Assembly (NCBI RefSeq): GCF_947495715.1
Contig: NZ_CANLZU010000027.1
Span: forward strand, 1-35,290
DNA: 35,290 bases
Source: an uncultured Oceanisphaera sp.
GTDB taxonomy: Bacteria > Pseudomonadota > Gammaproteobacteria > Enterobacterales > Aeromonadaceae
Direction: 5' to 3'
How positions within the stretch are numbered: the first letter of the stretch is position 1; each line of letters begins with the position of its first letter. Under the pieces are notes generated by a model. That model was not told the origin of the DNA and did no database searches. It saw only the letters and a list, made by a program, of their open reading frames with translations. Both the position numbers and the translations under genes were made by a program. Below are positions 4,605-35,154 of the stretch, piece after piece.

Positions 4605-4711
4605 GTAAGGAGTGAGGCGTAAAGCGTGAGGAGTAAAACCGGCCTGCAAATATGATGTTTTGCACCTCACACCTCACACCTCACACCTCACACCTCACAC
4701 CTCACACCTCA
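4605..4711. repeat. Heptamer inverted-array element 1
   Basis: Left arm 4605-4639: five phased heptamers GTAAGGA, GTGAGGC, GTAAAGC, GTGAGGA, GTAAAAC. Right arm 4663-4711: seven perfect copies of CACCTCA, whose complement reads GTGAGGT in the matching phase. A 23-base spacer lies between. It fills the whole gap between the convergent HAD gene and yceF; the array ends 6 bases from the yceF stop. Confidence 0.9.
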
Positions 4712-4716
4712 CATCC

Positions 4717-5295
4717 TCACGGTACTTCCACCCCAAAACGACCCAGCAGTTCCACCAGGGCGATCAACGGCAAGCCGACCAGGCTGTTGGGATCCCGACC
4801 TTCCATCCGTTCGAACAAACTGATGCCGAGGCCTTCACACTTGAAGGCGCCGGCGCAGTCCAGCGCCGGCTCCCGGTCCAGGTAACGCTCGATCTGCGCC
4901 TCGCTCAACGAACGGAGTACCACCGAAAACGGCTCTACCATCGAATGCAGGCGATCATTTGCTGCATCCAGCACTGCCAGACCGGTATAGAAGGTGATGT
5001 GTTGCCCGCTGGCAGCCAGTAGTTGTGCTCTGGCGCGATCCCGGGTACCGGGCTTGCCCAGGATCTGGCCCTGATTGACACACACCTGGTCCGAGCCGAT
5101 GATGAGCCCCTGAGGAAACCGGGTCGCGACGGCGCGGGCCTTTTGCTCGGCCAGCCGTTGCACCAGCGCCGTTGCCGGTTCGTCGGGCAAGGATGTTTCG
5201 TCGATGTTCGGGCTGCAGCTTTCAAAGTCCAGCCTAAGCTTGCTCAGCAGTTGCTGGCGGTAAGGGGAAGAAGAGGCGAGGATAATTCTGGCCAT
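4717..5295 (-). CDS. yceF: 7-methyl-GTP pyrophosphatase, Maf family
   Basis: A 192-residue Maf/YceF nucleotide pyrophosphatase; the E. coli orthologue hydrolyses 7-methyl-GTP and related modified nucleotides. It begins [17 protein letters not shown] (Maf N-terminal loop) and carries IIGSDQVCV with the presumed catalytic D69, the GKPGT segment, and the C-terminal block [21 protein letters not shown], which matches YceF better than the shorter Maf (YhdE) branch. ATG at 5293-5295 is chosen because an upstream in-frame ATG would add 24 unconserved residues. It lies between rluC and yceD as in E. coli, but transcribed the other way, divergent from yceD. Confidence 0.93.
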
Positions 5296-5338
5296 GGGCA
5301 CCCGAGCCTGTTTTAGGCAGTAAAATAAGAGGGTTGGC

Positions 5339-5367
5339 ATTGTAGTCGCCGCAGGCGGTAACGTCAC
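5339..5367 (-). promoter_or_regulatory. Candidate promoter of yceF
   Basis: On the minus strand GTGACG (5362-5367), 17-base spacer, TACAAT (5339-5344); start expected near 5332, about 37 bases before the ATG. Confidence 0.5.
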
Positions 5368-5417
5368 GGGCAGGACTCGAATGCTTGCCGTTTATTCGCG
5401 CTCAGTTTGCTTTTCTC

Positions 5418-5445
5418 TTTGACTCCGAAGGCCCGTCGCTATAAT
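5418..5445 (+). promoter_or_regulatory. Promoter of yceD-rpmF-fab cluster
   Basis: A perfect TATAAT (5440-5445) has TTGACT about 15-16 bases upstream. The next bases ATGCGCGCC form a GC-rich discriminator, typical of stringently controlled translation-machinery promoters. Expected start about 5452, only some 5 bases before the yceD ATG. Confidence 0.65.
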
Positions 5446-5456
5446 ATGCGCGCCTT

Positions 5457-5978
5457 ATGGAAAAGGTAAAGTTGCCCATTAAGGTTGATCCCGCTCGCTG
5501 CGCGCAAAGTCGTCTTGTATATCAAGGTGTGTTTGCCGCTGCTCTGATGCCCAGACTGCAGGATTCAACCCAAGGTATCCATGGTGATATCGACGTGTCT
5601 CTGAACTTTGGTACAGATGCCCAGGGGCTGCGCGTGATGTCGGGCCATGCCCGATCTCAGGTGTCGCTCCAGTGCCAAAGATGCAATGAGCTGTTTGATA
5701 CCACTATAGAATCCGAATTTACATACACGCCGCTACGTGCAAACGCAGAGGCGCCTGAACTGCCGGAAGATTACGACACTATTGAAGTGGATGAAATTGG
5801 TGAAATCAACCTGGCCGAGATCATCGAGGATGAATTAATCCTCGCTTTACCGCAGATACCGACTCATGAAAATGAGCAGTGTTCCGAGGGTAAATTTGAT
5901 CAAAGCTTTGGTGAGATCCCTACCGCTGAAGAGCGTCCGAATCCTTTCGCGGTTCTGGAAGGACTAAAACGTAAGTAA
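5457..5978 (+). CDS. yceD: YceD, DUF177 rRNA-accumulation protein
   Basis: A 173-residue DUF177 protein encoded just before rpmF, as in most bacteria and in plant chloroplast homologues, where the family supports 23S rRNA accumulation. The N terminus MEKVKLPIKVDPARCAQ and the C terminus PNPFAVLEGLKRK are the family signatures. Central LQCQRCNE keeps the two cysteines, and an acidic stretch EVDEIGEINLAEIIEDEL follows. The start is fixed by alignment to the E. coli N terminus. The promoter leaves almost no leader and there is no Shine-Dalgarno sequence, so translation may begin on a near-leaderless mRNA. Confidence 0.94.
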   Translation: MEKVKLPIKVDPARCAQSRLVYQGVFAAALMPRLQDSTQGIHGDIDVSLNFGTDAQGLRVMSGHARSQVSLQCQRCNELFDTTIESEFTYTPLRANAEAPELPEDYDTIEVDEIGEINLAEIIEDELILALPQIPTHENEQCSEGKFDQSFGEIPTAEERPNPFAVLEGLKRK

Positions 5979-5999
5979 CTGATTTAGGAGTGAGGTCAA

Positions 6000-6170
6000 A
6001 TGGCCGTACAAAAGAGTAAAGTATCTCGTTCTCGTCGTGGTCAGCGTCGCTCTCATGACGCACTGACCACCGCAGCTCTGTCTGTGGATAAAACCACCGG
6101 TGAACTGCATCGTCGTCACCATGTGACTGCCGACGGTTTCTACCGTGGCAAAAAGGTAATCGCCAAGTAA
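6000..6170 (+). CDS. rpmF: 50S ribosomal protein bL32
   Basis: A 56-residue basic protein starting [20 protein letters not shown] and ending YRGKKVIAK, matching E. coli bL32 almost residue for residue. It lacks the four zinc-binding cysteines found in C+ forms, so it is a C-minus paralogue. AGGAG (5986-5990) precedes the ATG. It sits between yceD and plsX, coupling ribosome and lipid synthesis in one transcript. Confidence 0.98.
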
Positions 6171-6180
6171 GGGTTGCCTT

Positions 6181-7200
6181 TTGCCGCAGCTGACCGTTGC
6201 GTTAGATATGATGGGGGGCGATCATGGCCCTTCGGTTACAGTGCCTGCCGCCGCGCAGGCACTGTCGCTTCTGCCTGATCTCAATCTGGTTCTGTTTGGC
6301 CTCGAGGCCGAGCTTTCTCCCTGGTTACGCCGCTTTCAATTGGACTCCCATCGTCGGGTGTGCGTGCAGTATTGCAGCCAGCAGGTAGAAAACGAACATA
6401 AAGCCGCTTATGCCCTGCGTCATCTGACCGACTCCTCCATGCGCAACGCGCTTGATGCCTTGGCATCAAGGCGGGCGCAGGCCTGCGTCAGCGCCGGTAA
6501 TACCGGTGCCTTGATGGCGATGGCGATGAAAACACTCAGTACCCTGCCCGGAGTGGACAGACCCGCCCTGATCACCCGGATGCCACAGGCCGGTGGTGGT
6601 TATGCGTTGCTGCTGGATGTGGGGGCCAACCTTAGCTGCGGCGCCGGGCAACTGGTTCAGTTTGCCCTGATGGGCGAGCAGGCGGCACGACATATCCTCG
6701 GCATCAGCCAGCCCCGCATCGGCCTGCTGAATGTGGGCGTGGAAGCCAACAAGGGTAATGAGTCGGTTCGCGAGGCGGCGCAGTGTTTGCAACAGTTGCA
6801 GCAGACAGAAGGGTTGCACTATAGCGGGTACGTGGAAGGGGATGAGCTGTTTTCCGGTCGCGTCGATGTTATTGTATGCGACGGTTTTGTCGGCAATGTG
6901 GCTTTGAAAACCAGCGAAGGGGTAGCACGGCTGTTGCTTGGTCAGCGACAACAGCGCGGTTTTTTAAGCAAAATATTGACTGTTTGGTTAAAAAAGCGGC
7001 TTTCCCATCTGAACCCCGACCAGTATAACGGCGCAAGTCTGATAGGATTGCGCGCCAGTGTGGTCAAGAGCCACGGGAGTGCCGGCTCACCTGCCTTCTT
7101 AAATGCGATCTTGCAGGCCGTTTCCGAAATTGAACATGACCTGCCTGCGAGCATCGCGCATCGTTTTGATACTGCCCCACGGGACAGTCACGCAAGATAA
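6181..7200 (+). CDS. plsX: Phosphate acyltransferase PlsX
   Basis: PlsX makes acyl-phosphate from acyl-ACP for PlsY, the first step of phosphatidate synthesis, at the inner face of the membrane. The 339-residue protein has the N-terminal [20 protein letters not shown] motif, [32 protein letters not shown] and the C-terminal [25 protein letters not shown] block. The start is TTG, 10 bases after rpmF, with AAGGG (6169-6173) seven bases upstream; this start fits the E. coli N terminus. Confidence 0.96.
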
Positions 7201-7205
7201 CGCCT

Positions 7206-8165
7206 ATGAACAGTAGAATATTGGGAACTGGCAGCTACCTGCCTGAAGCGGTACGCACCAATGCCGACCTGGAACAAATGGTAGAAACCAGCAATGACTG
7301 GATCGTCGAACGTACCGGAATCCGGGAACGTCGCATCGCCGGGGCAGAAGAAACTGTCGCCACCATGTCTTATGGCGCCGCCCTGCGTGCTCTGGACGCC
7401 GCCGGCATAGACGCGCAGCAGCTGGACATGATAGTGCTGGCCACCACCAGTGGCGATAACGCCTTTCCGGCCGCCGCCTGCGAAGTGCAGGCCATGCTGG
7501 ACGTGCCGGGCATTCCGGCATTCGATCTGGCCGCCGCCTGCGCCGGTTTCAGCTATGCCCTGAGTGTGGCCGATCAGTTCATCCGCAACGGTCAGGCCCG
7601 TCACATCCTGGTGATTGGGGCCGATGCCCTGTCACGCATGTGCGAGCCGGGCGATCGTTCCACCATCATCCTTTTCGGTGATGGTGCCGGTGCCGTGGTG
7701 CTGGGTGCCAGCGAAGAGCCGGGCATTCTGTCCACGCATCTGCATGCGGATGGTCGTTATGGCGAGCTGCTCAAGCTGCCCCAGCGTCAGCGCGGCGTCA
7801 GCGGCAGCGAGATGGACGCCTACATGAGCATGAAGGGTAACGAAGTGTTCAAGGTGGCGGTCTCGCGGCTGAGTGAAATCGTCACCCAGACCCTGGCCGC
7901 CAACGGCATCGACAAATCCGAGCTGGACTGGCTGGTGCCGCATCAGGCAAATTACCGCATTATCAATGCCACCGCCCGCAAGCTGAACATGCCGATTGAG
8001 CGGGTGATCCTCACGCTCGACAAGCACGGCAATACCTCGGCGGCCAGCGTGCCCATTGCGCTTGACGAGGGCGTGCGGGATGGCCGTATTCAGCGGGGCC
8101 ATCTGGTACTGCTGGAGGCCTTCGGTGGCGGTTTCGCCTGGGGCTCTGCCCTGGTGCGCTTCTAA
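7206..8165 (+). CDS. fabH: 3-oxoacyl-ACP synthase III
   Basis: KAS III condenses acetyl-CoA with malonyl-ACP and starts each fatty acid chain. The 319-residue thiolase-fold protein has the catalytic triad C112 (in [10 protein letters not shown]), H246 (in LVPHQAN) and N276 (in KHGNTSAAS), plus the C-terminal [13 protein letters not shown]. Position C112 is the same as in E. coli. It follows plsX by 5 bases in the same operon. Confidence 0.97.
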
Positions 8166-8213
8166 CGACCGGCTTGTTTTTTAAACGGATTCGTTTTCAA
8201 AGAAGGACAGACA

Positions 8214-9149
8214 ATGACATTTGCCATTACCTTTCCCGGACAGGGATCTCAGGCGGTAGGCATGCTTGCGGGCGTGCTGGCCGAGCATGATATCGTGAAG
8301 CAGACCTTTGCCGAGGCGTCCAGCGCCCTGGGTTACGACCTGGCCGAGCTGGTACTGAGCGGTCCGGCCGAAGAGCTGAACAAGACCTGGCGTACCCAGC
8401 CGGCCTTGCTGACTGCTTCGGTTGCCCTGTGGCGCCTGTGGCAACAGCAGGGCGGTGCCCAGCCGGCCGTGATGGCCGGTCACAGCCTGGGCGAGTACTC
8501 GGCGCTGGTCTGTGCCGGTGTACTGAGCCTGACCGACGGCGTCAAACTGGTCGAATTGCGTGGCCAGTTGATGCAGGAAGCCGTGCCCGAAGGCACCGGC
8601 GCCATGTCGGCCATTATCGGTCTGGACAACGACACCATTGTGGCCAACTGCGCCAAGGCGGAAGAGGGCGAAGTGGTGTCGGCGGTGAACTTCAATTCAC
8701 CTGGCCAGGTCGTGATCGCCGGTAACAAGGCGGCGGTAGAGCGGGCCAATGTACTGATGAAGGAAAGCGGTGCCAAACGCGCTCTTCCACTGCCGGTCAG
8801 CGTGCCTTCACACTGTGCGCTGATGCGAACTGCCGCCGAGCAACTGGAGCAGACCCTGGCCGAGATGACGTTCAACGAGCCGGCAGTACCGGTGATCAAC
8901 AACGTGGACGTCAAGATGGAAACCTCGGCGGCGGCCATCAAGGACGCTCTGGTACGTCAGCTGTACAGTCCGGTACGCTGGACCGAAACCGTGGAGGCCA
9001 TGGTGGGGCAGGGCGTAACCCTGGCGCTGGAAGTCGGCCCGGGCAAGGTATTGTCCGGCCTGGCCAAGCGTATCGACAAGCGGGTTGAAGGTCTGGCGGT
9101 TAACGACGACGCCGGCCTGCAGCAGGCTCTGGCGGCAGTACAGGCTTAA
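8214..9149 (+). CDS. fabD: Malonyl-CoA:ACP transacylase
   Basis: FabD loads malonate from CoA onto ACP. The 311-residue protein has the N-terminal FPGQGSQ, the nucleophile elbow GHSLGE with S91, a conserved arginine at 116 (ELRGQLM) and catalytic H200 in SVPSHCALM. GAAGGA precedes the ATG. The downstream gap to fabG (204 bases) is unusually long for this operon and is occupied by a palindromic element. Confidence 0.97.
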   Translation: MTFAITFPGQGSQAVGMLAGVLAEHDIVKQTFAEASSALGYDLAELVLSGPAEELNKTWRTQPALLTASVALWRLWQQQGGAQPAVMAGHSLGEYSALVCAGVLSLTDGVKLVELRGQLMQEAVPEGTGAMSAIIGLDNDTIVANCAKAEEGEVVSAVNFNSPGQVVIAGNKAAVERANVLMKESGAKRALPLPVSVPSHCALMRTAAEQLEQTLAEMTFNEPAVPVINNVDVKMETSAAAIKDALVRQLYSPVRWTETVEAMVGQGVTLALEVGPGKVLSGLAKRIDKRVEGLAVNDDAGLQQALAAVQA

Positions 9150-9178
9150 CTATATACAACGCAGAATTGATAAGGGAT

Positions 9179-9325
9179 GGCAGAGTGACAGCTAAGCCGA
9201 CCGTGACATGCCAGCGCCAACAACAGCTCCTGCAATGTTGGCATTTCCGCCATCCGTGGCGGTCAGACGGCATGTCCGAGCCCCCAGGGAGGGGTTTATG
9301 GCGTGTCGGCGTGCTTCGCTCTGCC
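9179..9325 (+). repeat. Palindromic element copy C, inside the fab operon
   Basis: A 147-base element between fabD and fabG, closed by GGCAGAG (9179-9185) and CTCTGCC (9319-9325). Nested pairs are GCCGAC (9196-9201) with GTCGGC (9305-9310), GACATGCC with GGCATGTC, GCCAAC with GTTGGC and CCGCCA-tccg-TGGCGG. Its last third aligns without gaps over 31 bases with copy B at 18230-18262. It would be transcribed with the operon. Confidence 0.8.
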
Positions 9326-9353
9326 AGCCCTTTGCACAATCGAAGGAGTCACT

Positions 9354-10088
9354 ATGAGTTTTTCCGGTAAAGTGGTACTGGTCACCGGCGCCAGCCGGGG
9401 TATCGGTCGGGCAACCGCCGAGCTGTTTGCCAGCCGTGGCGCGACCGTTATCGGTACCGCCACCAGCGAAAAGGGCGCCGAGGCGATCGGAGCCTATCTG
9501 GGCGACAATGGTACCGGTCTGGTCCTGAACGTGACCGATGTCGAGTCCATGAATCAGCTGCTGGAAACCATCAAGCAGCGTTATGGCGATATCGATGTGC
9601 TGGTCAACAACGCCGGCATCACGCGCGATAACCTGATGATGCGCATGAAAGACGACGAATGGCAGGATATTCTGGACACCAACCTGACTTCGGTATTCCG
9701 TTTGTCCAAGGCGGTACTGCGGGCCATGATGAAGAAACGTCATGGCCGTATCGTGACCATCGGCTCCGTTGTCGGCACCATGGGCAATGCCGGTCAGGCC
9801 AACTATGCGGCCGCCAAGGCGGGACTGATTGGGTTCAGCAAATCGCTGGGTCGCGAAGTGGCTTCGCGTGGCATTACCGTCAATGTGGTGGCACCCGGAT
9901 TTATTGAAACCGACATGACACGTTCATTGAATGAAGAGCAAAGGGCCGGTATCTTGTCACAGGTTCCAACACAACGGTTGGGCGACCCGAAAGAAATTGC
10001 CTCTGCCGTGGCTTTTTTGGCTTCGGATGAGGCCGGTTATATCACAGGTGAAACGCTGCACGTAAATGGCGGCATGTACATGGTGTGA
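9354..10088 (+). CDS. fabG: 3-oxoacyl-ACP reductase
   Basis: NADPH-dependent reductase of the elongation cycle, a 244-residue classical short-chain dehydrogenase. It has the cofactor motif TGASRGIGRA (11-20), NNAG (85-88), and the tetrad N110, S138, Y151 and K155, identical in number to E. coli FabG. The C-terminal LHVNGGMYMV is typical. ATG at 9354 is chosen: AAGGAG lies just upstream, and the in-frame ATG at 9303 would add 17 unconserved residues made from the palindromic element. Confidence 0.97.
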   Translation: MSFSGKVVLVTGASRGIGRATAELFASRGATVIGTATSEKGAEAIGAYLGDNGTGLVLNVTDVESMNQLLETIKQRYGDIDVLVNNAGITRDNLMMRMKDDEWQDILDTNLTSVFRLSKAVLRAMMKKRHGRIVTIGSVVGTMGNAGQANYAAAKAGLIGFSKSLGREVASRGITVNVVAPGFIETDMTRSLNEEQRAGILSQVPTQRLGDPKEIASAVAFLASDEAGYITGETLHVNGGMYMV

Positions 10089-10145
10089 TGAAAATCTCCG
10101 CAGTTAGGAGCTATTTGACGGAAATTGCGACATTATTGGCAGTTT

Positions 10146-10162
10146 TTCTGGTTTGACCAGAC
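10146..10162 (+). promoter_or_regulatory. FadR-like operator upstream of acpP
   Basis: TTCTGGTTTGACCAGAC contains the inverted repeat CTGGT-ttg-ACCAG, very close to known E. coli FadR sites such as that of fadB. It is centred about 53 bases before the expected acpP start, compatible with activation. FadR is known to activate fabA and fabB in E. coli; control of acpP here is inference. Confidence 0.55.
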
Positions 10163-10172
10163 TCAAATAGTC

Positions 10173-10200
10173 TTGCAAACTACGGTTAATTTAATACACT
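10173..10200 (+). promoter_or_regulatory. Candidate promoter of acpP
   Basis: TTGCAA (10173-10178), 16-base spacer, TACACT (10195-10200). Start expected near 10207, leaving a leader of about 40 bases. The 158-base gap after fabG supports a separate promoter for this highly expressed gene. Confidence 0.45.
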
Positions 10201-10246
10201 ACCGCAACGACACGCACTTGCGTATTTCTAAAGGATAATACTGGTC

Positions 10247-10483
10247 ATGAGCAACATCGAAGAACGCGTAAAAAAAATCATCATCGAGCAACTGGGTGTT
10301 AAAGAAGAAGAAGTTAAGTCTGAAGCCTCTTTCGTTGATGATCTGGGCGCCGATTCCCTGGATACCGTTGAGCTGGTAATGGCTCTGGAAGAAGAATTCG
10401 ACACCGAAATTCCTGACGAAGAAGCTGAAAAAATCACTACCGTTAAAGCGGCAGTTGATTACATCAACGCTAACCAGGAATAA
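10247..10483 (+). CDS. acpP: Acyl carrier protein
   Basis: A 78-residue acidic four-helix protein that carries growing acyl chains on a phosphopantetheine arm attached to S37 in [10 protein letters not shown]. The N terminus [18 protein letters not shown] matches E. coli AcpP closely. AAGGA lies upstream of the ATG. It is followed at once by a strong hairpin that probably sets its mRNA level apart from fabF. Confidence 0.98.
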
Positions 10484-10492
10484 TAAACCTGT

Positions 10493-10523
10493 ACCGAAGT
10501 GGCTATCGCCACTTCGGTTCTTT
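10493..10523 (+). terminator. Hairpin terminator between acpP and fabF
   Basis: A perfect 11-bp stem ACCGAAGTGGC (10493-10503) and GCCACTTCGGT (10508-10518) with loop TATC, followed by TCTTT. The U-tract is short, so partial termination is likely, giving more acpP than fabF mRNA. Confidence 0.65.
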
Positions 10524-10555
10524 CCCCGTTTTAACCCCCATTCGGAGACGCTCCT

Positions 10556-11797
10556 GTGTCCAAACGCAGAGTCGTGGTGACTGGCCTCGGTATGCTCTCT
10601 CCTGTCGGTAACTCGGTCGATGCCAGCTGGCAGGCCCTGTTGGCAGGCCAAAGTGGCATCAGCAACATCGAACACTTTGATACTACCGACTACAGCACCA
10701 AATTCGCAGGCCTGGTCAAGGACTTTGATCCCGAAGCTCATGGTATCGCCAAGAAAGAAGCCCGTAAGATGGACTTGTTCATCCAGTACGGGGTGGCGGC
10801 CGGCTTGCAGGCCATGGCCGATTCCGGTCTTGATATCACCGAAGCTAACGCCGACCGCGTTGGTGTATCCATCGGTTCCGGTATCGGTGGTCTGGGTCTG
10901 ATAGAGCAGAACCACACCAACCTGATGGCCAGCGGTCCTCGCAAACTCAGCCCGTTCTTTGTACCGTCCACCATCATCAATATGGTGTCCGGTCATTTGT
11001 CGATCATGAAGGGTCTGCGAGGCCCCAATATTGCGGCGACCACCGCCTGTACTACCGGTACGCACAGCATTGGTCTGGCCGCACGCATGATTGCCTACGG
11101 TGACGCCGACGCCATGTTGGCGGGCGGCACCGAGAAAGCCTCCACCACCATGGGCATGGGTGGCTTTGCCGCCGCTCGTGCTCTGTCTACGCGCAATGAC
11201 GAGCCGCAAAAGGCGAGTCGTCCCTGGGACAAAGAGCGCGATGGCTTTGTGCTGGGTGATGGCGCCGGTGTGATGATGCTTGAAGAGTATGAACACGCCA
11301 AGGCGCGTGGCGCCACCATCTATGCCGAGATGGTTGGTTTTGGCATGAGTGGCGACGCCCATCACATGACGGCACCACCCGGCGATGGCAGCGGTGCCGC
11401 CAAGGCGATGGCCAACGCCATCAAGGATGCTGATATCGCGCCCGAGCTGATCGGATACGTCAACGCCCACGGCACCTCTACCCCGTTGGGTGATGTGGCC
11501 GAGCTGCGTGGCATGAAAACGGTATTCGGCGCTCACGCCAATCAGTTGATGATCAGCTCGACCAAGTCGATGACCGGTCACCTGCTGGGTGCTGCCGGTG
11601 CCGTGGAAGCCATTTTCAGCGTGCTGGCGTTGCGTGATCAGATTGCGCCCCCCACCATCAACCTGGATAACCCGGATGATGAGTGCGATCTGGATCTGGT
11701 GCCTAACCAGGCGAAGAAAGGTCAATTCGAGTATGCCCTGTCCAACTCCTTCGGTTTTGGCGGCACCAATGGCTCATTGATTTTCAAACGCATATAA
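10556..11797 (+). CDS. fabF: 3-oxoacyl-ACP synthase II
   Basis: KAS II elongates acyl-ACP with malonyl-ACP and governs temperature-dependent unsaturated chain length. The 413-residue protein starts at GTG ([18 protein letters not shown]), the start conserved in E. coli. Catalytic C165 lies in [13 protein letters not shown]305 in [11 protein letters not shown] and H342 in [12 protein letters not shown]. The C terminus [17 protein letters not shown] is canonical. An intrinsic terminator begins 21 bases after the stop. Confidence 0.97.
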
Positions 11798-11817
11798 TGG
11801 CCTTTTGGCCAATCCCG

Positions 11818-11846
11818 AGCCCGGCCTTAGCGCCGGGCTTTTTTAT
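11818..11846 (+). terminator. Intrinsic terminator after fabF
   Basis: Perfect 8-bp stem AGCCCGGC (11818-11825) and GCCGGGCT (11832-11839), 6-base loop, followed by a run of six T. It ends about 10 bases before the pabC ATG. Confidence 0.88.
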
Positions 11847-11855
11847 TGGGTGATC

Positions 11856-13647: not shown

Positions 13648-13650
13648 TAC

Positions 13651-14274: not shown

Positions 14275-15242
14275 GTGGTCAACAGCAGCAACTGACCGCG
14301 CTTATCCGCCAGCAGCATCTGGGCCATGCCCTGTTGTTGAAAGGGGTGGAAGGCGTGGGCAAGCGCGAACTGGCGCAGGCATTGGCACATGCTTTATTAT
14401 GCCAACATACAAATGATGGCCATCATGCATCCGGTGAACAAGGCGTCCCCTGTGGGCACTGTCATTCCTGTCAGCTGATGGCTGCCGGCAATCATTCGGA
14501 TCTGCATGTCATCAGTGGCAGTGCACGCAGCATAGGGGTGGATGCCATCCGCCAGTTGACCCAGGTATTGAATGAAAGTGCTCGCCTGAGCCATGGCAAG
14601 GTGGCGGTGATCGAGCAGGCGGAAAAAATGACCGAAGCCGCCGCCAATGCGCTGCTGAAAACCCTGGAAGAGCCGGCGGGCGAGGCGACGCTGCTGCTGA
14701 CCAGCTCGCATCCCGAACGATTGCTGCCGACCATTCGCAGCCGCTGCCAGCAGTGGTTGTTACCGGTGCCCGAGTCTGAAGTGGTCTTGCGCTGGCTGAC
14801 CGGGCAGGGGCTGGATCCCAGCCTGGCGGCGCTGAATGTAAACCAGGGCTCGCCGCTCAACACCCGCGATTACCTGATTGCCGGTACCGATCGGCGGCGC
14901 CGTGAGCTGTTGCAGCAGTTTGTCGAGCTGGCCACACAGCCGCGAACCCTGACGTCGGTGCAAAGCGGTCTGCTGGAGCAGCCGGTGCACCTGCTCTGGT
15001 TGCAAATGCTGCTGCAGGATGCGCTGCAACTGGCGCTGGGTTTGTCACCGGCCGGGTTGCGGCTGGCCGACAGCGAACCCCTGTGCCGCACGCTGAGCCA
15101 GCATGGGCCGGAGCGGCTGACTCAGGCGCTGAACAGCCTGTTGCAATTGCGCCAGACCCTGCAGCCGGGCACCGGCAGGCCGGTAAATACCGGCCTGCAA
15201 CTGGGCCAATGGCTCAATGACTGGCTGATTAACATAAAGTGA
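14259..15242 (+). CDS. holB: DNA polymerase III subunit delta'
   Basis: Clamp-loader subunit that acts as the stator of the gamma complex. The 327-residue AAA+ protein has a modified P-loop GVEGVGKR (29-36) and a zinc module with C48, C65, C68 and C71. Sensor-1-like [20 protein letters not shown] and [21 protein letters not shown] are typical of delta'. The start is GTG, with GGAG (14247-14250) 8 bases upstream, inside the end of tmk. Confidence 0.94.
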
Positions 15243-15245
15243 AGT

Positions 15246-15369
15246 GTGAGGAGTAAGGAGTAAGGAGTAAGGAGTAAGGAGTAAGGAGTAAGGAGTAAGG
15301 AGTTTTGTACTGCTGCCTTTGTCTCACGCCTCACGTCTTACTCCTCACGTCTTACTCCTCACCCCTCAC
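15246..15369. repeat. Heptamer inverted-array element 2
   Basis: Left arm 15246-15301: one GTGAGGA then seven perfect GTAAGGA. A 19-base spacer follows. Right arm 15321-15369: seven heptamers of form NYCTYAC (GTCTCAC, GCCTCAC, GTCTTAC, TCCTCAC, GTCTTAC, TCCTCAC, CCCTCAC). The arms are complementary over about 50 bases and would form a long hairpin in the transcript. It begins 3 bases after the holB stop and separates holB from tatD. Confidence 0.92.
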
Positions 15370-15407
15370 ATGTCTTTCCCCTCACTATCTATTCAAAGGA
15401 GACGGTT

Positions 15408-16196: not shown

Positions 16197-16198
16197 AA

Positions 16199-16412
16199 GT
16201 AAGGGGTGAGGGGTGAAAAATAAGCACCGAGCTCCAGGCGCCAGGCTAAAACATACACCCAAGGCCAATAATCGTCATACCGGGCGTGCCCCGGTATCTC
16301 TTTGCAAATAGCCCCCCAGACCGAAACAAGATCCTGACGTTCGTCAGGATGACGGCTTTCGTTGAACTCGGCGTTTGTCTCTGTTCCTCACTCCTCACCC
16401 CTCACCCCTCAC
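16199..16412. repeat. Heptamer inverted-array element 3
   Basis: Left arm 16199-16219: GTAAGGG, GTGAGGG, GTGAAAA. Right arm 16385-16412: four heptamers TCCTCAC, TCCTCAC, CCCTCAC, CCCTCAC. Unlike the other copies the interior is 165 bases and holds a pair of REP-like hairpins. It starts 3 bases after the tatD stop. Confidence 0.8.
16273..16354. repeat. Inverted pair of REP-like hairpins
   Basis: CGTC-ATACCGGG-loop-CCCGGTAT (16273-16297) and ATCCTGAC-gttc-GTCAGGAT-GACG (16331-16354). Both are perfect 8-bp stems, and the flanks CGTCAT and ATGACG are mutually inverted, the layout of a REP doublet (BIME/REPIN). Confidence 0.7.
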
Positions 16413-18118: not shown

Positions 18119-18120
18119 TC

Positions 18121-19562: not shown

Positions 19563-19589
19563 TGCTAAACAATGAGCAAAAATAACAAA

Positions 19590-19771
19590 CAAAAAAAGCC
19601 AGGTACCAAATCCATGTACCTGGCCTAGGGGAATGGCTCATTGACTGAGCCGTGCGCTAGTGTGAAGGCACCAAGAAGGCACACTTCGATTAAACTATCG
19701 GCCAGAATACGCTCGCTCGCCAGAAACCGGGCAAAAAAGTTGCCCGAATCCGTTTAAATCAGCAGATCGAG
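19590..19771 (-). ncRNA. Candidate structured small RNA or leader
   Basis: About 180 nt on the minus strand with no plausible open frame, between a promoter (19778-19805) and an intrinsic terminator (19591-19624). Read 5' to 3' it has CGCTCG...CGAGCG enclosing CGGGCAA-cttt-TTGCCCG, AGTGTG...CACACT, GGCTCA-gtcaa-TGAGCC and the terminator stem. I do not recognise it as 6S, Spot 42, GcvB, RyhB or SRP RNA. It could be an independent sRNA, or an attenuated leader of the transporter gene that begins 100 bases downstream. Confidence 0.5.
19591..19624 (-). terminator. Minus-strand intrinsic terminator
   Basis: On the minus strand GCCAGGTAC (19616-19624), 9-base loop, GTACCTGGC (19598-19606), then seven T (19591-19597). 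It cannot serve the transporter or yebG, both of which point away or start later. Confidence 0.8.
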
Positions 19772-20174: not shown

Positions 20175-20214
20175 GTGAGACATGAGGGCGCGCGATCGTC
20201 GCCTCATGCCTCAC
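20175..20214. repeat. Heptamer inverted-array element 5 (minimal)
   Basis: Two heptamers per arm: GTGAGAC ATGAGGG (20175-20188) and GCCTCAT GCCTCAC (20201-20214), whose complement reads GTGAGGC ATGAGGC. It forms a tight hairpin between the convergent yebG and ABC transporter genes, 11 and 10 bases from their stops. No T-run follows, so it is not a standard terminator. Confidence 0.65.
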
Positions 20215-25205: not shown

Positions 25206-25211
25206 CTCCCT

Positions 25212-25245
25212 GCCCGAATCCGCTCACACCGGGTTCGGGCTTTCT
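25212..25245 (+). terminator. Intrinsic terminator after prc
   Basis: GCCCGAA-tcc (25212-25221) pairs with ggg-TTCGGGC (25231-25240), followed by TTTCT. Confidence 0.6.
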
Positions 25246-25285
25246 CATTAAAGCCCCCTCCGACGACGTTAACGAGATCTCCGCT

Positions 25286-27892: not shown

Positions 27893-28113
27893 TGCAACGG
27901 CTGCGTTTTCGTCTGACCATCAGCAGAGCGCAGCTGCTGCAGTACTATCAGGGTCACACCGCCGCCCTGTCGGTGATCACCGAGCAGGGGCTGCGACTGC
28001 AGGTGGCCCTGCATCACTTTCGCAGCTTTGTCGGTCACGACGGCCTCAACGGCCGTTTTGAAATCGAACTGACCGAGCAACGCCAACTGCATCGACTCCA
28101 CCGCCTGTCCTGA
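27892..28113 (+). CDS. DUF2835 family small protein
   Basis: A 73-residue protein starting MQRLRFRLTISRAQLLQYYQG; the F-L-I-S then L-YY-G pattern and the later HHFRSFVGHDGLNGRFEIEL correspond to DUF2835. Function is unknown. The ATG overlaps the pepN stop by one base. No signal peptide, membrane helix or catalytic motif is visible; basic residues and alternating beta pattern suggest a small cytosolic beta-rich protein. Confidence 0.8.
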   Translation: MQRLRFRLTISRAQLLQYYQGHTAALSVITEQGLRLQVALHHFRSFVGHDGLNGRFEIELTEQRQLHRLHRLS

Positions 28114-28123
28114 TCCGGGATAT

Positions 28124-28154
28124 AAAGCAGGCTGGCAAGTCGTCGGTCTGCTTT
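28124..28154 (+). terminator. Possible weak terminator after the DUF2835 gene
   Basis: AAAGCAG (28124-28130) and CTGCTTT (28148-28154) pair across a 17-base loop; only a poor T-run follows. The rest of the 370-base gap to 28483 is AT-rich with a possible -10 TATATT near 28332-28337; no gene was seen in it. Confidence 0.3.
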
Positions 28155-28483
28155 CATTCATGTTATTTCATGTTCGTTACCACTTTCGCGCAGGGGCATA
28201 GTGCCTGTGATGTTATTTTATTCGTTAACCCCACAAATTAAATAAATAACGCGCCTAATTATTCAAAATAACACTGAAACAATTCATTTACGTTTAGATG
28301 ATTATTTTGCAAATGTTTTTCTATGCTTTGTGTATATTCTGCCCACTAGTGATCGAGTCGATATTTTGAAACCTTTTTCTCCTGCTTTACTCGCATTCGA
28401 TATATACCGGGCTTACACTGTTTTGGTCCCGTTGGGGCTCCACTTCCCCATGGTCATTGCCTGTATCCGAGGAACACGACGCC

Positions 28484-31400
28484 ATGATATTTAAAGACGC
28501 AGCAACGTCCGTTTTACTTGAAAATGTGAATCAACTGATAGCCGACAAGTTTTCCGATAATGCCGCGCCCCTGGTAAACACTTTTGTCAGCAAGCTTTAT
28601 AGCGGCATGACCCACCACGATCTGAACCATCGTAACGATAGCGATCTGTATGGTGCTGCCATCAGCCTGTGGGGTTCTTTTGAAACTCGCGCCGAACAAA
28701 CGCCCTATGTTCGCGTCTACAATCCCGAATTGTCCCGTCACGGTTGGCAGTCCCCTCACACCATCGTCGAACTGATTATCAAAGACGCGCCTTTCCTGGT
28801 GGACTCCATCCGCATGGTACTGACCCGCATGGGCATTACTTCCCATCTGATGCTGCACCAGCCGATGCATCTGGTACGCGACGAGCAGGGCAAGCTGCAG
28901 CAGATACTGTCGAGCAGCGAGCAGAAAAAACAGAACCGGGTCGAAACCGCCTTTTTGATCGAAATCGACAGGCAGCCCCAGGCAAAGACCCGGGAGCAAC
29001 TGTGTGACGAATTGCTGTCGGTGGTCGAAGAAGTCTCGCTGATGGTGGGTGACTGGCAGCCGATGGTGGAACGCTTCGGCGAGATCATCAAGGAACTGCC
29101 CAGGCAGGCCAAGCGCGCCAACCCGGAACATCTGGAAGAAACCCTGTCCTTTCTGAGCTGGGTCGCCGATCACAACTTTACCCTGATGGGCTACCGCCGC
29201 TACCATATTTCCGCCATCGAAGGTGACTACGAGCTGGTACCCGAGCAGGACACCAGCCTGGGCTTGCTGCGTCATGTGCAAAAGGACGACAGCCTCAAGT
29301 TCAGCAGCCTGACCTCGACCGCGCGCGAGGCGGCGCTGAGCAAGGATATTCTGGTCCTGACCAAGACCAATCACAAATCCCGGGTACACAGACCCGCCTA
29401 TATCGATTATATCGGCGTCAAGCGTTTTGACGACAAGGGCAATGTGGTGGGGGAAGATCGCTTTATCGGCCTCTATGCCTCCAGCATCTACAACACCAGT
29501 GCCATGCAGATTCCGCTGATTGGCGCCAAGCTCAGACGCATCATCGATGGCTCCGGCCTGGAGCACGGCTCGCATGCCTACAAGGCGCTGCTCAATATTC
29601 TGGAGACCTATCCGCGTGATGAGCTGATTCAGGCGACCGAAAAAGAGCTGCGTGATATCGGCATGGGCGTACTGGCCATGCAGGAGCGGGACATGACCCG
29701 GCTCTTTGTGCGCCGCGACCTGTTTGGCCGTTTCTTCTCCTGCATGGTGTATGTCACCAAGGAACGCTACAACACGGCGCTGCGTGAAAAAACCCAGCGC
29801 ATACTGCAGCGTTATTTCGGCTCGGAAGAAGAAGTGGAATTCACTACCTACTTTTCGGAAGGCGTACTGGCCCGCACCCATTATTTGATTCGGGTGCCGA
29901 ACAATTCGATGGATATTGATGTGAACGACATTCAGGCAAATTTGATTGAAGCGGCGCGCAGCTGGGAAGACAAGCTGGAACAGTCGCTGTCCGTCAGCTT
30001 CGGCGAGGCCGAAAGCAATCGACTGAAAGAAAAATATCGTAATGCCTTTCCGCGCGCCTATACCGAGCATGTGATGCCCGGCTCTGCGGTGGGGGATATC
30101 GAAAAACTGGAAGCACTGAGCGATAACAACCCGCTGGGCATGCTGTTCTACCGGGCCCAGGAAGAAGACAAGGACTCCAACCGAGTACGCCTCAAGCTGT
30201 ATCACAGAGCCGAGCCCATTCATTTGTCCGATGTGTTGCCGATGCTGGAAAACATGGGGCTGCGGGTGATTGGTGAAACGCCGCATGAAATCGACTGTGC
30301 CGGTGATACCTTCTGGATCCTCGACTTCTCCATGTATTACAACGGTGCGCCGCTCGATCTGGACGCCACCCAGGAACGGTTCCAGAAGGCCTTTGCCCAG
30401 GTGTGGAGTAACGAGCTGGAGAGTGACGGTTTCAACCGCTTGGTGCTGGCCACCCGGCTGACCGGGCGCGAGGTCAGCGTACTGCGCGCCTATGCCCGCT
30501 ATATGCGCCAGACCGGGGTCACCTTCAGCCAGAGCTATATCGAGGAAACCCTGTCCCGTTACCCGCATCTGGCCTGTCTGCTTTTCACGCTGTTTGAACA
30601 GCGGCTGTCGCCCGTTCACAAGCAAAGCGTCAAGGCGCTGCAGGCGCTGCATCAGGAAATGCTGGAGGAACTCGACAAGGTCGCCAACCTGGACGATGAC
30701 CGTATCATCCGCCGTTACATGGAGATGATTGAAGCGACCCTGAGAACCAACTTCTATCAGCCTGCCGTTGATGGCAGCGACAAGGCCTATATCTCGTTCA
30801 AGATGGCGCCCGAAACCATCAGCGACATGCCGTTGCCGCTGCCCAAGTTCGAAATCTTCGTCTACTCGCCGCGAGTGGAAGGGGTGCATTTGCGCTGGGG
30901 CAAGGTGGCGCGGGGCGGCCTGCGCTGGTCCGATCGTCGGGAAGACTTCCGTACCGAAGTGCTCGGCCTGGTCAAGGCGCAGCAGGTCAAGAACACCGTT
31001 ATCGTGCCGGTGGGTGCCAAGGGCGGTTTCGTCTGCAAGCAACTGCCGGTCGGTGACCGAGCCGCCTTCCTCAAGGAAGGCCAGAATTGCTATCGTCTGT
31101 TTATTCGCGCCCTGCTCGACGTAACCGACAACATCATTCAGGGCGAAGTGATTCCGCCCAGGAATGTGGTGCGTCACGACGAAGACGACTACTACCTGGT
31201 GGTGGCGGCCGACAAGGGCACCGCGACCTTCTCCGACATTGCCAACGAAATCAGCGCCGAGTACGGCCATTGGCTGGGCGATGCTTTCGCCTCCGGCGGC
31301 TCTGTCGGTTACGATCACAAGAAAATGGGCATTACCGCCCGCGGCGCCTGGGAATCGGTGAAACGCCATTTCCGGGAAATCGGCATCGACTGTCAGCAGA

Positions 31401-33319
31401 CCGACTTTACCGCCGTTGGTGTGGGTGACATGGCCGGCGACGTGTTCGGTAACGGCATGCTGCTGTCCGAACATACCCGTCTGGTGGGGGCCTTCAACCA
31501 TCTGCATATCTTCATCGACCCGGAGCCGGATGCCGCCAGCAGCTACAAGGAGCGGCAGCGTCTGTTCAATACCCCGGGTTGCAGCTGGGACGATTATGAT
31601 CGCAGCCTGATTTCCGACGGTGGCGGCATCTTCCTGCGCTCGGCCAAGTCCATCAAGCTCAGCCCGCAGATGAAGAAACTGCTGGGTACCCAGAAAGCCA
31701 GCCTGACCCCGACCGAGGTGATCCGTCACCTGCTGATGGCCGAGGTCGATCTGTTGTGGAATGGCGGTATCGGTACCTACGTCAAATCACGCCGGCAAAC
31801 CGATGCGGATGTGGGCGATCGCGCCAACGATTCCGTTCGTATTAACGGTGAAGATCTGCGTGCCCGTATCGTGGGCGAAGGCGGTAATCTGGGTTGTACC
31901 CAACTGGGCCGTATTGAATATGCCGGCAAAGGCGGGCGCATCAATACCGACTTTACCGACAACGTCGGCGGGGTGGATTGCTCGGATAACGAGGTTAACA
32001 TCAAGATCCTGCTCAATTCCCTGGTCGACAAGGGTGAATTGACCAAGAAACACCGGGATCAGTTGCTGTACGACATGACGCAGGATGTGGCCGACATAGT
32101 TCTGACCAACGCCTATCGTCAGTCACAGACCATCTCCATTACCGCGCATCGTGGTGCCAGCCCGCTCAAGGAGCATCAGCACTTCATGCACTGGCTGGAG
32201 CGGGAAGGCAAACTCGACCGTAACCTGGAATACCTGCCGAACGATGAAGAGCTGGCCGAGCGCATGGCCGACGGTCGTGGTCTGACCCGTCCCGAACTGG
32301 CCGTACTGGTGGCCTACGGTAAAATGGTGTTGAAGGACATGCTCAATGTGCCCGAGCTGACCGATAACGACTACATTGCCCGCCTGCTGCCCACCAGCAT
32401 GCCGGCCAAACTGGTAGAGCGGTTCGGTGAGGCGCTGATGGAGCACCCGCTGCGCAGTGAAATTATTGCCACCCGTCTGGCCAATATCATGGTCAACGAC
32501 ATGGGCTTCAACTTCGCCAACCGGCTGCAGGATGAAACCGGCGCCAGCATGTGCGATATCGCCATCAGCTTCATGATTGCCCGTGAAGTGTTCGGCATGA
32601 ACCAGTTGCTTCGCGATATTGAAGCGCTGGACAACAAGGTGGCGGCCGCAACCCAGCTGGAGATGTTCTATCAGGTACGGCGCATGGTTCGCCGGGCGAC
32701 CCGCTGGTTCCTGCGCTCGCGCAACCGTAACCAGAGCATCGAACAGACCATAGATCTGTTCAAGCCGGCCTATGCGACCCTGACCGAGCATCTTTATCAG
32801 GTGATGGTGGAGTCCGAGGTCCAGGAGCACCAGCAAGACGTCGCCAGGCTGGAAAAGCAGGAGGTGCCGACCTCTATCGCCGAACGAGTGACTCAAATGA
32901 GCAGCTTGTTCTCGGCGCTGGATCTGGCCCAGATAGCCGTTGAGCAGGAGCGGGATATTCGGGTGGTGGCCGAGCTGTACTTCCATTTGGGTGCCGAGCT
33001 TCAGTTGCACTGGTTCCTGGAGCAGATCAACAAGCAGGCGGTGGGCAACCACTGGCAGGCGCTGGCCCGGGCCGCCTTCCGGGAAGATCTGGATTATCAG
33101 CAGCGCAGCCTGACATCAGTGGTATTGAAACGCTGTAAAGCCAAGGTTGAATGCGCTAACATGCTCGACCAGTGGCTTGATGAGCATGAACAGTTACTGA
33201 ATCGCTGGCGTCATCTGCTGGCGGACTTTAAAGCGTCCGGCAGTCATGAGTTTGCCCAATTCTCTGTCGCCATGCGCGAGCTGAACCTGCTCCATCTCAA
33301 TTGTATGAACGCCGTCTAA
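28484..33319 (+). CDS. gdhB: NAD-specific glutamate dehydrogenase, large 180-kDa class
   Basis: Oxidatively deaminates glutamate to 2-oxoglutarate with NAD, a catabolic role. The 1611-residue protein belongs to the large GDH class known from Pseudomonas, Shewanella and Streptomyces and absent from E. coli. Long N-terminal ACT-like regulatory regions (about 1-700) precede the catalytic domain, which has [33 protein letters not shown] (K846), [12 protein letters not shown] and [11 protein letters not shown]-terminal helical region (about 1250-1611) follows. ATG 28484 is preferred to the TTG at 28457 on conservation of MIFKDA and an upstream GAGGA. The gene symbol follows Pseudomonas usage. Confidence 0.93.
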
Positions 33320-33340
33320 ATATCACGGTGTAAAACACAA

Positions 33341-33368
33341 AAGCCCCGGCCATGACCGGGGCTTTTTT
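33341..33368 (+). terminator. Intrinsic terminator abutting pyrD
   Basis: Perfect 9-bp stem AAGCCCCGG (33341-33349), loop CCATGA, CCGGGGCTT (33356-33364), with six T (33363-33368). The T-run ends one base before an in-frame ATG of pyrD. Confidence 0.9.
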
Positions 33369-33370
33369 AT

Positions 33371-33375
33371 GAGGA
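33371..33375 (+). promoter_or_regulatory. Ribosome binding site deciding the pyrD start
   Basis: GAGGA, 8 bases before GTG 33384. The ATG at 33369 has only the terminator before it. Confidence 0.65.
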
Positions 33376-33383
33376 AGAAATAC

Positions 33384-34391
33384 GTGTATTCACTGGTTAA
33401 ACCCCTGCTTTTTCAATGTGATCCCGAACATGTGCACGAACTGACCATCAAGGGGCTGGCCAAGTCTCAGCACGGCCCGCTGGCGGCCTTGTATCGTCGG
33501 CCCAGCATTCATAATCCGGTAGAACTGATGGGGCTGACGTTCGATAATCCGGTCGGGCTGGCGGCCGGACTCGACAAGAACGGGGACTGCATCGATGCCT
33601 TCGCCGCCATGGGGTTCGGTTTTATTGAAATTGGTACCGTCACGCCGCGCGCGCAGCAGGGCAATGAAAAACCGCGGCTGTTCCGTATTCAGGAAGCCGA
33701 CGCCATTATCAACCGCATGGGCTTCAATAATAACGGTATCGATTATTTAATCGAAAATGTCCGACAGTCTCGTTATACCGGTGTGTTGGGTATTAATATC
33801 GGCAAGAATAAAGATACGCCTATCGAGCACGGCAAAGACGATTACCTGATTTGCATGGAAAAAGCCTATGCCCATGCCGGTTATATTACCGTGAACATTT
33901 CTTCGCCCAATACGCCGGGCCTGCGCTCGCTGCAATACGGCGAGGCACTCGACGACTTGCTGTCTTCGCTCAAGCAAAAACAGCGGCAACTGGCCGAGCA
34001 ACATAACAAGCAGGTACCCTTGCTGGTCAAGATAGCGCCCGATCTGTCGATGGAAGAAATCGAGCAGGTGGCCGACAGCCTGGTGCGCTTCGAGCTCGAT
34101 GGTGTCATCGCCACCAATACCACCCTGGATCGGGAGCTGGTGTTCGACCTGCCGCATGCTCATGAAGCAGGGGGCCTGAGTGGTCGACCGGTGCAGAACA
34201 AAAGCACCTTGGTGATCAAGGAGTTGTCGCGCCGCCTCGATGGTCGACTGCCGATTATCGGCGTCGGAGGGATCGACTCATTGACCGCCGGCAGAGAAAA
34301 AATGGCCGCCGGTGCCAGTCTGGTACAGGTCTATTCCGGCTTTATTTATCAGGGACCGGCACTGATTCAGCGTCTGGCCCGACATCTGTAA
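33384..34391 (+). CDS. pyrD: Dihydroorotate dehydrogenase (quinone)
   Basis: Class 2, membrane-associated FMN enzyme that oxidises dihydroorotate to orotate with quinone. The 335-residue protein has an N-terminal amphipathic helix region ([19 protein letters not shown]), [33 protein letters not shown] with the catalytic serine, and [13 protein letters not shown] 33384 is chosen for its ribosome binding site and the E. coli-like N terminus; ATG 33369 would add 5 residues. An intrinsic terminator lies directly before it, so its promoter is not obvious. Confidence 0.93.
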
Positions 34392-34407
34392 CGGATATTA
34401 TTGGTCT

Positions 34408-34475
34408 GATAATTTGCTCCCCACGGCCAAATACAATATAAATTAAGGGATTGGGGAGCAAGATTATCATTTTAT
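34408..34475 (+). terminator. Large hairpin between pyrD and zapC
   Basis: GATAATTTGCTCCCC (34408-34422) pairs with GGGGAGCAAGATTATC (34453-34468) with one bulge, across a 30-base AT-rich loop; ATTTTATT follows. It may terminate pyrD or fold in the zapC leader. Confidence 0.5.
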
Positions 34476-34495
34476 TCTCACAAGGTGTGACTGGG

Positions 34496-35032
34496 ATGTT
34501 ACTACAACCAAATGATTGCTGGCGCTGGTTCATGGGCGAGGATCGACACCTTATGTTGGATCTGGGGGCGGAAATGCTGTTCAGCACGCCCTACCTCAAA
34601 AAACAACTGGTGTGTCCGGAAACGATAAATCAGTGCTTTTCGGTCGAAGATGCCGGTCTTTATTATCGCTTTCTCGATACGCTGTCTTCGATCCGTGCGC
34701 CCGCACAACGGGTACAGGCTGCCCTGAACGGCGTTGCCATCGCCCGTTTTTATAAACCCCTGATGCCACAAAGCTGGTTTTTCGAGCCACAGGCCGATTA
34801 CCATCAACCGCAACTGGGAGAGCTGATTGCGCTCGATATCCAGACCGAGCTGTTGACCATGATGGTGGTGGAAACCTCGCCGTCGGCGACAGTCTGCATG
34901 TCCTTGTCGGGAGATCAGTTACTGGCGAACAGCAAACAACTACCGACTTTCGCTGCCATCAAGGTGATGAACGACAGGATCATCAGCCTGGAAGCATCTT
35001 ATCGGGAAGAAGAAATCAGGAAAGTGGGATAA
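34496..35032 (+). CDS. zapC: Cell division protein ZapC
   Basis: A 178-residue FtsZ-associated protein that promotes Z-ring bundling. The N-terminal pattern QPNDCWRWF...LMLDLGAEMLF, ALNGVAIARFYKPLMPQSWFF and the late AAIKVMNDRI block match E. coli ZapC, which also follows pyrD. ATG 34496 has AAGGTGTG upstream; the earlier TTG at 34451 falls in the hairpin. It is followed by a heptamer repeat element. Confidence 0.9.
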   Translation: MLLQPNDCWRWFMGEDRHLMLDLGAEMLFSTPYLKKQLVCPETINQCFSVEDAGLYYRFLDTLSSIRAPAQRVQAALNGVAIARFYKPLMPQSWFFEPQADYHQPQLGELIALDIQTELLTMMVVETSPSATVCMSLSGDQLLANSKQLPTFAAIKVMNDRIISLEASYREEEIRKVG

Positions 35033-35036
35033 ACAA

Positions 35037-35154
35037 AGCTAAAAGACAGCGGTAAGCCATAAGCGATCAGCTGTAAGGTAAGAAAAACAATGATTGGATT
35101 TAAATGCACGACGCATAAACTAATTTGATAGCTGATAGCTGATAGCTGATAGCT
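35037..35154. repeat. Heptamer inverted-array element 4 (AGC type)
   Basis: Left arm 35048-35082: phased AGCGGTA, AGCCATA, AGCGATC, AGCTGTA, AGGTAAG, preceded by AGCTAAA at 35037. Right arm 35127-35154: four perfect GATAGCT (complement AGCTATC). A 44-base spacer separates them. It follows the zapC stop and lies in the gap before the convergent tRNA gene. Confidence 0.85.

Follow-up and report, generated by a model that had tools for sequence, protein, structure and literature searches.

The 35,290-nucleotide stretch analyzed here (the window) is contig 27 of the 3.65-Mb genome of an uncultured Oceanisphaera sp., and its TatD is 96% identical to that of O. litoralis, the best match in the named collection. 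At five places in the window the end of a gene is followed by an array of tandem 7-nt units, a loop, and an array of the reverse-complement units. The gene 3' ends concerned are, as we take the names to be, those of gph, holB and tatD, of a small open reading frame (ORF) before an ABC transporter gene, and of an ORF ending at 35032. Throughout the genome these inverted heptamer pairs share one anatomy and one polarity, lie at gene 3' ends that are short of separate intrinsic terminators, vary in a slippage-like manner, and recur at the same sites in related species. The arrays of the window are as follows.

4605..4631, plus strand: 5' arm of the gph/maf array, four GTRAGGN units, 7 nt past the gph stop codon
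next in phase to this arm, plus strand: cap heptamer GTAAAAC
4665..4712, minus strand: 3' arm of the gph/maf array, seven CCTCACN units, 4 nt from the stop codon of the convergent maf
15239..15300, plus strand: 5' arm of the holB/tatD array, nine units, the TGA of unit 1 being the holB stop codon
15322..15369, minus strand: 3' arm of the holB/tatD array, seven units; tatD begins 38 nt downstream
16199..16211, plus strand: 5' arm of the tatD/nfeD array, two units, 2 nt past the tatD stop codon
16212..16385, no strand: tatD/nfeD loop, 174 nt, with a nested palindrome and a hairpin, GATCCTGACG-CGTCAGGATGACGG, like repetitive extragenic palindromes (REP)
16386..16412, minus strand: 3' arm of the tatD/nfeD array, four units
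20175..20214, no strand: small ORF/ABC locus, a minimal hairpin GTGAGAC-ATGAGG ... CCTCATG-CCTCAC between convergent genes
35037..35080, plus strand: 5' arm of a class C array (see below), five NNTMAGC units, 4 nt past a stop codon
35126..35154, minus strand: 3' arm of the same array, four copies of TGATAGC (the GCTKANN side)

All five loci named in an earlier, sequence-only reading of the window are present, with the holB/tatD array starting one unit, GTGAAGT, 7 nt upstream of the start given there (15246). The description of the arrays as lying just after stop codons also stands: the distances from the preceding stop are, in order, 7, -4, 2, 11 and 4 nt, with one overlap, at holB. The loop of the gph/maf locus (4605–4712) is 33 nt. 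The array at 20175–20214 is an imperfect two-unit hairpin, and its right arm alone satisfies our two-unit rule.

We analyzed 835 kb in total, namely the window and 800 kb of the same genome in 20-kb stretches. C1 (280 of 291 kb), C4 (160 of 184 kb) and most of C3 were sampled as long runs; the C2 blocks and C3:110001–130000 were chosen for two-unit GTRAGG matches, and the C5 and C6 blocks were also chosen on a search result. Under a strict rule (13 of 14 matches at lag 7), and with a crude, home-made gene caller, 37 arrays of period 7 were found in 147,713 intergenic bases against none in 687,577 coding bases; none appeared in ten first-order Markov simulations of intergenic DNA. The earlier observation is thus confirmed as going far beyond chance, and the view that the arrays are a genome-wide family is supported. 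A looser rule (12 of 14) gave 42 intergenic and 2 coding arrays. Each of the other periods from 4 to 16 yielded at most four intergenic arrays, except for period 14, whose 35 arrays are taken to be the same 7-mer arrays detected again. Arrays are thus almost confined to a period of 7, a restriction that slippage in general would not lead one to expect. Two adjacent GTRAGG units have 530 matches in the whole genome; the backwards control for this search (61) can match the arrays themselves, and we draw no inference from it.

The genome holds at least three unit classes, GTRAGGN (class A), GGGANTN (class B) and NNTMAGC (class C). With one mismatch per unit tolerated, 39 class A groups were detected, and 21 of these form pairs, in every one of which the GTRAGGN arm comes first, then the loop, then the CCTYAC arm; none is reversed. 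Single class A arrays have 2 to 15 units, and the loops measure 8 to 174 nt. The unit is tightly constrained, with G at position 1 in 191 of 192 units and A at position 4 in 192 of 192; position 3 is a purine almost without exception, position 7 varies freely, and the constraint is alike in both arms. On the inner side of each arm, the first heptamer in phase leans toward GTAAAAC; its G1 is present in 33 and 34 of 39 cases, own pairs and those of other families taken together. Class B comprises 10 groups with 7 pairs, all in the class A polarity, although one pair (C1:73684; 28 nt, 2 + 2 units) is weak. Positions 1–4 and 6 are conserved over its 75 units, and a whole-genome search for three class B units with up to two mismatches returned 193 matches against 67 for the backwards control. 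Class C, to which the window array at 35037–35154 belongs, comprises 20 groups, called as six pairs in the usual order and one in the opposite order. Two of these calls, C6:10020 (usual order) and C5:15219 (opposite), are AGCT-rich and 30–36 nt long, and we read each as one arm matched on both strands; with these overlap artefacts set aside, five pairs are left, all in the polarity of classes A and B. By consensus, the gene-proximal arm is the purine-richer arm in all three classes.

The loops often contain further palindromes (window 16212–16385; L031, L045, L171, L175), of which the GATCCTGACG-CGTCAGGATGACGG hairpin and a long inverted CCACGGAAGCACACGGAAA... element in G392 are examples. The heptamer pairs look like the outer shells of nested palindromes.

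The arrays are tied to the ends of genes. The start of a class A pair lies -4 to +15 nt from a stop codon in 19 of 21 cases, whereas only 40 of 400 random segments fall at -5 to +15 (Fisher p 6e-16), so that the link to gene 3' ends, which the sequence-only reading proposed to examine by a genome scan, is strong. In three long ORFs, holB and those at C1:75929 and C2a:5748, the TGA or TAA of the first unit is itself the stop codon. Relative to background gaps of at least 60 bp, class A pairs are absent between divergent genes (0/21 vs 88/399) and enriched between convergent ones (10/21 vs 78/399); the other 11 of the 21 lie between co-directional genes. In 6 of the 10 convergent pairs neither stop is more than 15 nt from the array, which leaves little room for anything else between the genes.

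The same gene ends carry arrays in related species. The TatD region was compared in 20 of 22 same-genus relatives, 16 of them more distant, and arrays recur at four of the window sites (gph/maf, holB/tatD, tatD/nfeD and small ORF/ABC), despite intergenic sequence that looks, by eye, largely unrelated between species. In the 16 more distant genomes, 12 of 12 class A arrays, 3 of 4 class B arrays and 7 of 11 class C arrays (looser rule) fall at the four sites, as do 9 of 10 arrays called by Tandem Repeats Finder, while these sites make up 32% of the mapped intergenic bases; the counts are not independent, because related genomes share ancestry. The total over the three classes, 22 of 27, is a fuller recount of a narrower one (20 of 20) that omitted arrays outside the mapped gene pairs. 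Arm lengths change between species. At gph/maf the first arm differs by one base in O. litoralis (G007), while the second arm goes from seven units to two, and the right arm of the 20175–20214 site has five units in relative G009. The insert in the 174-nt tatD/nfeD loop is present in G007 and G016 and absent from G013.

The class of unit changes as well. Depending on the species, the gph/maf and tatD/nfeD sites hold GTRAGGN, GGGANTN or NNTMAGC-type arrays, and at another gene end, C1:19268, GTRAGGN in our genome is replaced by an NNTMAGC-type array in O. litoralis. The earlier suggestion that the period and the inversion are kept more than the sequence is therefore supported insofar as several unit sequences interchange at the same gene ends, but not within a class, where the sequence is tightly held. 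At the gph/maf site of G002 (L145) we also see a fourth heptamer type in inverted arrangement, GTNRRAC (GTTGGAC, GTGAAAC, GTAAGAC). The paired arrays contrast with the tatD/nfeD sites of G006, G002 and G017 (L135, L145, L143), where AATCCCC stands in 14 to 16 copies and no GGGGATT arm opposite to it is obvious.

Outside the genus the class A motif is patchy. A stretch of three adjacent GTRAGG units is present in 19 of the 23 genomes of the genus (own included) and in 0 of 38 other genomes of the family and order. Four adjacent units occur in 14 of 369 genomes of the class (own included), representing 12 of 272 genera; among the other 13 positive genomes, overlapping matches number 24 to 108 in seven and 1 to 9 in six. 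Patchy as it is, the motif is exact in distant families. In stretches taken at the listed matches of seven of these genomes we found 18 pairs, in five genomes belonging to five other gammaproteobacterial families, and all 18 have the polarity seen in Oceanisphaera. In 40 matching stretches from a viral collection there are 9 paired groups (8 simple and one double), again in the same polarity.

Arrays of this kind are already known, contrary to the view of the sequence-only reading that no inverted-array family had been described in gammaproteobacteria. The (GGGANTN)n repeats of Xanthomonas, typified by GGGAATC, form 70 convergent pairs in Xcc and 75 in Xac, preferentially within 50 bp of stop codons (PMC4692102). 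According to the available parts of that account, which also covers the GGGGA(C/T)T repeats of Nostoc (Rehm et al., 2015), they share with the arrays described here the period of 7, the conservation of positions 1–4 and 6, an intergenic location near stops on the sense strand, rarity between divergent ORFs, and convergent inverted pairing (PMC4692102). Like the sites compared here, they mostly occupy the same places in Xcc and Xac with changing length (PMC4692102). Class B carries the Xanthomonas motif itself and is a counter-example to the statement, in the same text, that the repeats are found in Xanthomonas and not in other gammaproteobacteria (PMC4692102). The GTRAGGN and NNTMAGC arrays of the window do not fit GGGANTN. 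Moreover, GTGAGGA, GTGAGGC and GTGAGGT units lack a G3 run, and GTRAGGN gains one only if position 7 is G. Fixed polarity, absent covariation of the arms, class switching and several classes per genome did not come up in the parts of the Xanthomonas account at hand (PMC4692102). What is new is the GTRAGGN class and its patchy spread, the strict polarity, the lack of covariation between arms, and class switching at orthologous gene ends; among the literature matches listed, none that we recognized deals with GTRAGGN arrays or with heptamer arrays of Oceanisphaera.

Other likenesses are more distant. The TAACTGA repeats of Beggiatoaceae, Cyanobacteria and Bacteroidetes are, as far as the accessible text goes, also mostly intergenic, patchily distributed 7-mers that place stops in three frames (MacGregor, 2015; PMC4679880). 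They are, however, direct repeats lying mostly just upstream of start codons; the Guaymas genome has 169 direct sets against one indirect repeat (PMC4679880), whereas the arrays here are inverted, built of other units and placed behind stops. The "predicted global regulator binding sites" of Geobacter metallireducens (classes 1–3, with GGACCGG heptamers) are likewise tandem 7- or 8-mers, and its classes 1 and 2 form opposite-strand pairs at variable distance, as do the pairs here (PMC2700814). They differ in motif and in the insertion sequence (IS) elements that keep a constant distance from some of the class 1 sites, and we saw no link to gene 3' ends in the portion of that work available to us (PMC2700814). 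Finally, the parS heptads of plasmid pSM19035 are contiguous 7-bp units, direct or inverted, that work as an array (PMC9499535). Their motif, WATCACW, is bound by omega, a ribbon-helix-helix ParB protein, with one dimer per unit and at least four contiguous units needed for full ATPase activation; as presented in the sections available, they lie at a plasmid promoter/centromere rather than at gene 3' ends (PMC9499535).

We tentatively favor the view that the arrays form hairpins in the 3' untranslated region, by which transcripts are ended or protected at gene ends that seldom have a separate intrinsic terminator. An inward-facing heptamer pair would be transcribed directly past the stop codon, and the transcript would fold in the cell into a long hairpin of 6-bp helices with one free base between them. 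As any unit could pair with any unit of the opposite arm, the arms could gain or lose units by 7-nt slippage and leave the stem intact. The hairpin might then end or protect the mRNA 3' end, either as a barrier to exonucleases or by helping Rho-dependent termination; where a T run follows, it could itself act as a long intrinsic terminator, and between convergent genes a single palindrome could serve both transcripts. Support for this comes from the placement of the arrays, their slippage-like variation, their recurrence at the same sites, their apparent service to convergent genes, and the Xanthomonas repeats, at whose G-quadruplex-forming members transcripts start or stop more often than at control repeats, as far as that account goes (PMC4692102). 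It also comes from the scarcity of terminators and from the T runs. A separate short intrinsic terminator was found at 3 of 29 array gene ends (which take in unpaired arrays of at least four units) against 140 of 408 other ends (p 0.007), although the finder, home-made and crude, folds 38 nt and is blind to an array stem followed by a T run, which tells against leaning on this difference. Six of the 11 co-directional pairs have a T-rich run within 12 nt past the far edge of the array. Among gene-end readings the figure is 11 of 31, and among random intergenic points it is 154 of 1197 (p 0.001 for pairs and readings alike), the count at convergent loci being confounded by the AT-rich stop region of the opposite gene. 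Such runs (for example, GTTTTTT at C2b:33728) are lacking at most loci, but some loci might work as long intrinsic terminators, and the runs add weight to the terminator reading. Long RNA hairpins, which the sequence-only reading had foreseen, are indeed predicted by folding (median z -4.8 over 21 loci, weakest -1.6), except that pairing between the arms is poor at two loci whose first arm is very long; these z-scores are largely a consequence of the inverted design, and so count for less in favor of a hairpin than their size suggests.

Several further observations weigh against the hairpin. It needs no fixed polarity, yet all accepted pairs share one, and selection for hairpins does not account for an identical motif in unrelated families. 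Nor do the arms covary: when units are paired from the outside inward, agreement at the free position 7 is seen in 10 of 43 cases, where random pairing of arms predicts 28%, and at position 3 in 39 of 64, where it predicts 63%. Neighboring units within an arm share the base at position 7 in 35 of 45 and 41 of 63 cases. With neighbors alike and facing units not, each arm seems to evolve by its own slippage, and the constraint seems to act per unit and not per base pair. The absent covariation is our reason for rejecting copying from arm to arm, or selection for perfect stems. Further, 18 of the 39 class A groups are unpaired (7 with at least three units and 11 with two), three two-unit groups sit inside genes, two of the seven other-family genomes (G296 and G423) have arrays but no pair, and the stops at -4, -11 and -18 in other families are partly forced by stop codons within the units. 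At some convergent loci a terminator-like hairpin with A and T runs beyond the array is an alternative candidate for the same role. In the comparison with relatives, the fuller recount slightly weakens site conservation. The exceptions number six once Tandem Repeats Finder rows are included, four behind qmcA, one at fabF/pabC (G015) and one at fabH/fabD (G018). The first 400 kb taken of O. litoralis contain only 3 class A pairs, and of 56 own array groups sought in that sample only 6 were syntenic, under loose rules that admit false positives (three of the same class, one changed from A to C, one lost, and one apparent coding false positive). The arrays behind qmcA, none of which is in the window, are of class B, class C or a TCCAGCT type (G014, G011, G002 and G022; L136, L144, L145 and L149), and this 3' end is a possible fifth recurring site.

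The polarity, the per-unit constraint without covariation and the exact units across families, which the hairpin alone does not explain, leave room for a factor that reads 7-nt steps. The units could be binding sites for a putative DNA- or RNA-bound protein with such a step, as in omega/ParB, forming a two-sided roadblock or boundary that presents the same orientation to RNA polymerase arriving from either gene. We consider this possible, if unlikely. Constraint on each unit in both arms, strict polarity, the omega precedent (PMC9499535) and the return of one motif in genomes from 12 genera all suit it; on the other hand, we have no candidate protein at hand and made no search for one, the several unit classes of this single genome, no fewer than three, would call for more than one protein or a loose one, class switching at a single site fits poorly, and two-unit arms are common. 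The hairpin and the binding factor may both hold. That bacteria of several families share a gene-end mark, an inward-facing pair of 7-nt unit arrays directly behind the stop codon, read or bound in 7-nt steps by a hypothetical factor and conserved in step, polarity and place while the unit sequence at a given gene end is interchangeable, seems to us doubtful. Neutral slippage, under which 7-mers expand easily and persist only where they are harmless, behind stop codons, is an improbable source of the whole pattern: it agrees with the differing arm lengths of close species and with a suggestion relayed in the accessible parts of two papers that 7 nt is the stretch touched by DNA polymerase (PMC4692102; PMC4679880), but periods of 5, 6 or 8 do not share the excess, and random slippage leads one to expect neither inverted partners of one polarity and few unit classes, nor the same units in distant families and their absence from divergent gaps.

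REP elements and bacterial interspersed mosaic elements (BIME) resemble the arrays in being extragenic palindromes that lie behind genes and may shield the 3' ends of mRNA; unlike the arrays, they are single palindromes with REP-associated tyrosine transposase (RAYT) partners, and are not known to contain heptamer arrays. It seems improbable to us that the pairs are a selfish, REP-like mobile family spread by a transposase, with the heptamers as recognition ends and a preference for sites behind stops. Copies are dispersed, their spread over families is patchy, REP-like palindromes are nested within loops, and the array at C1:29814 was lost or rebuilt between close species. The sites nevertheless recur and do not move; counts of the Y1 transposase (PF01797) do not track array counts over 40 genomes, and the Y1 linkage expected of REP/BIME is lacking, as 18 of 20 Y1 places examined have no array in their flanks. 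RAYT-driven spread is thus not supported. Our genome does contain a Y1 gene, at G000:C2:27075–27440 (L271), and some 220 nt away, where the next gene ends, there is a GGGACTC array. The Y1 gene presumably encodes a TnpA of the IS200 type, and, most Y1 places being free of arrays, it probably adjoins this class B array by chance.

Three other ideas were set aside. We rejected a stop-codon trap, in which the TRA of GTRAGG (TAA or TGA) repeated every 7 nt places stops in three frames, as the principal role: among the 11 co-directional pairs the far arm, which offers no sense stop, keeps T2 and A4 each in 63 of 63 units, against 45 of 50 and 50 of 50 in the near arm, and many class B units contain no stop. 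Shine–Dalgarno mimicry and a likeness to integron core sites were dropped, since each suits one class only.

Descriptions of heptamer arrays have so far been scattered, treating them as G-quadruplex repeats, as regulator sites or as translation signals. Three classes of one design, interchangeable at a gene end, shift the question from the role of a motif to what requires a 7-nt step and an inward polarity, and bear on how genes without a separate intrinsic terminator, convergent ones especially, define their 3' ends.

Two features of the window lie apart from the arrays. Between a bcr-like gene and the small ORF, at 19587–19726, there are overlapping matches to the small RNAs SdsR/RyeB (minus strand, 59 bits) and SraC/RyeA (plus strand, 40 bits). 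At the left edge, positions 1–140 hold a 21-bp repeat in 6.7 copies, which we assume may be the repetitive C-terminal part of an RNase E-like gene (a guessed name) on the minus strand.

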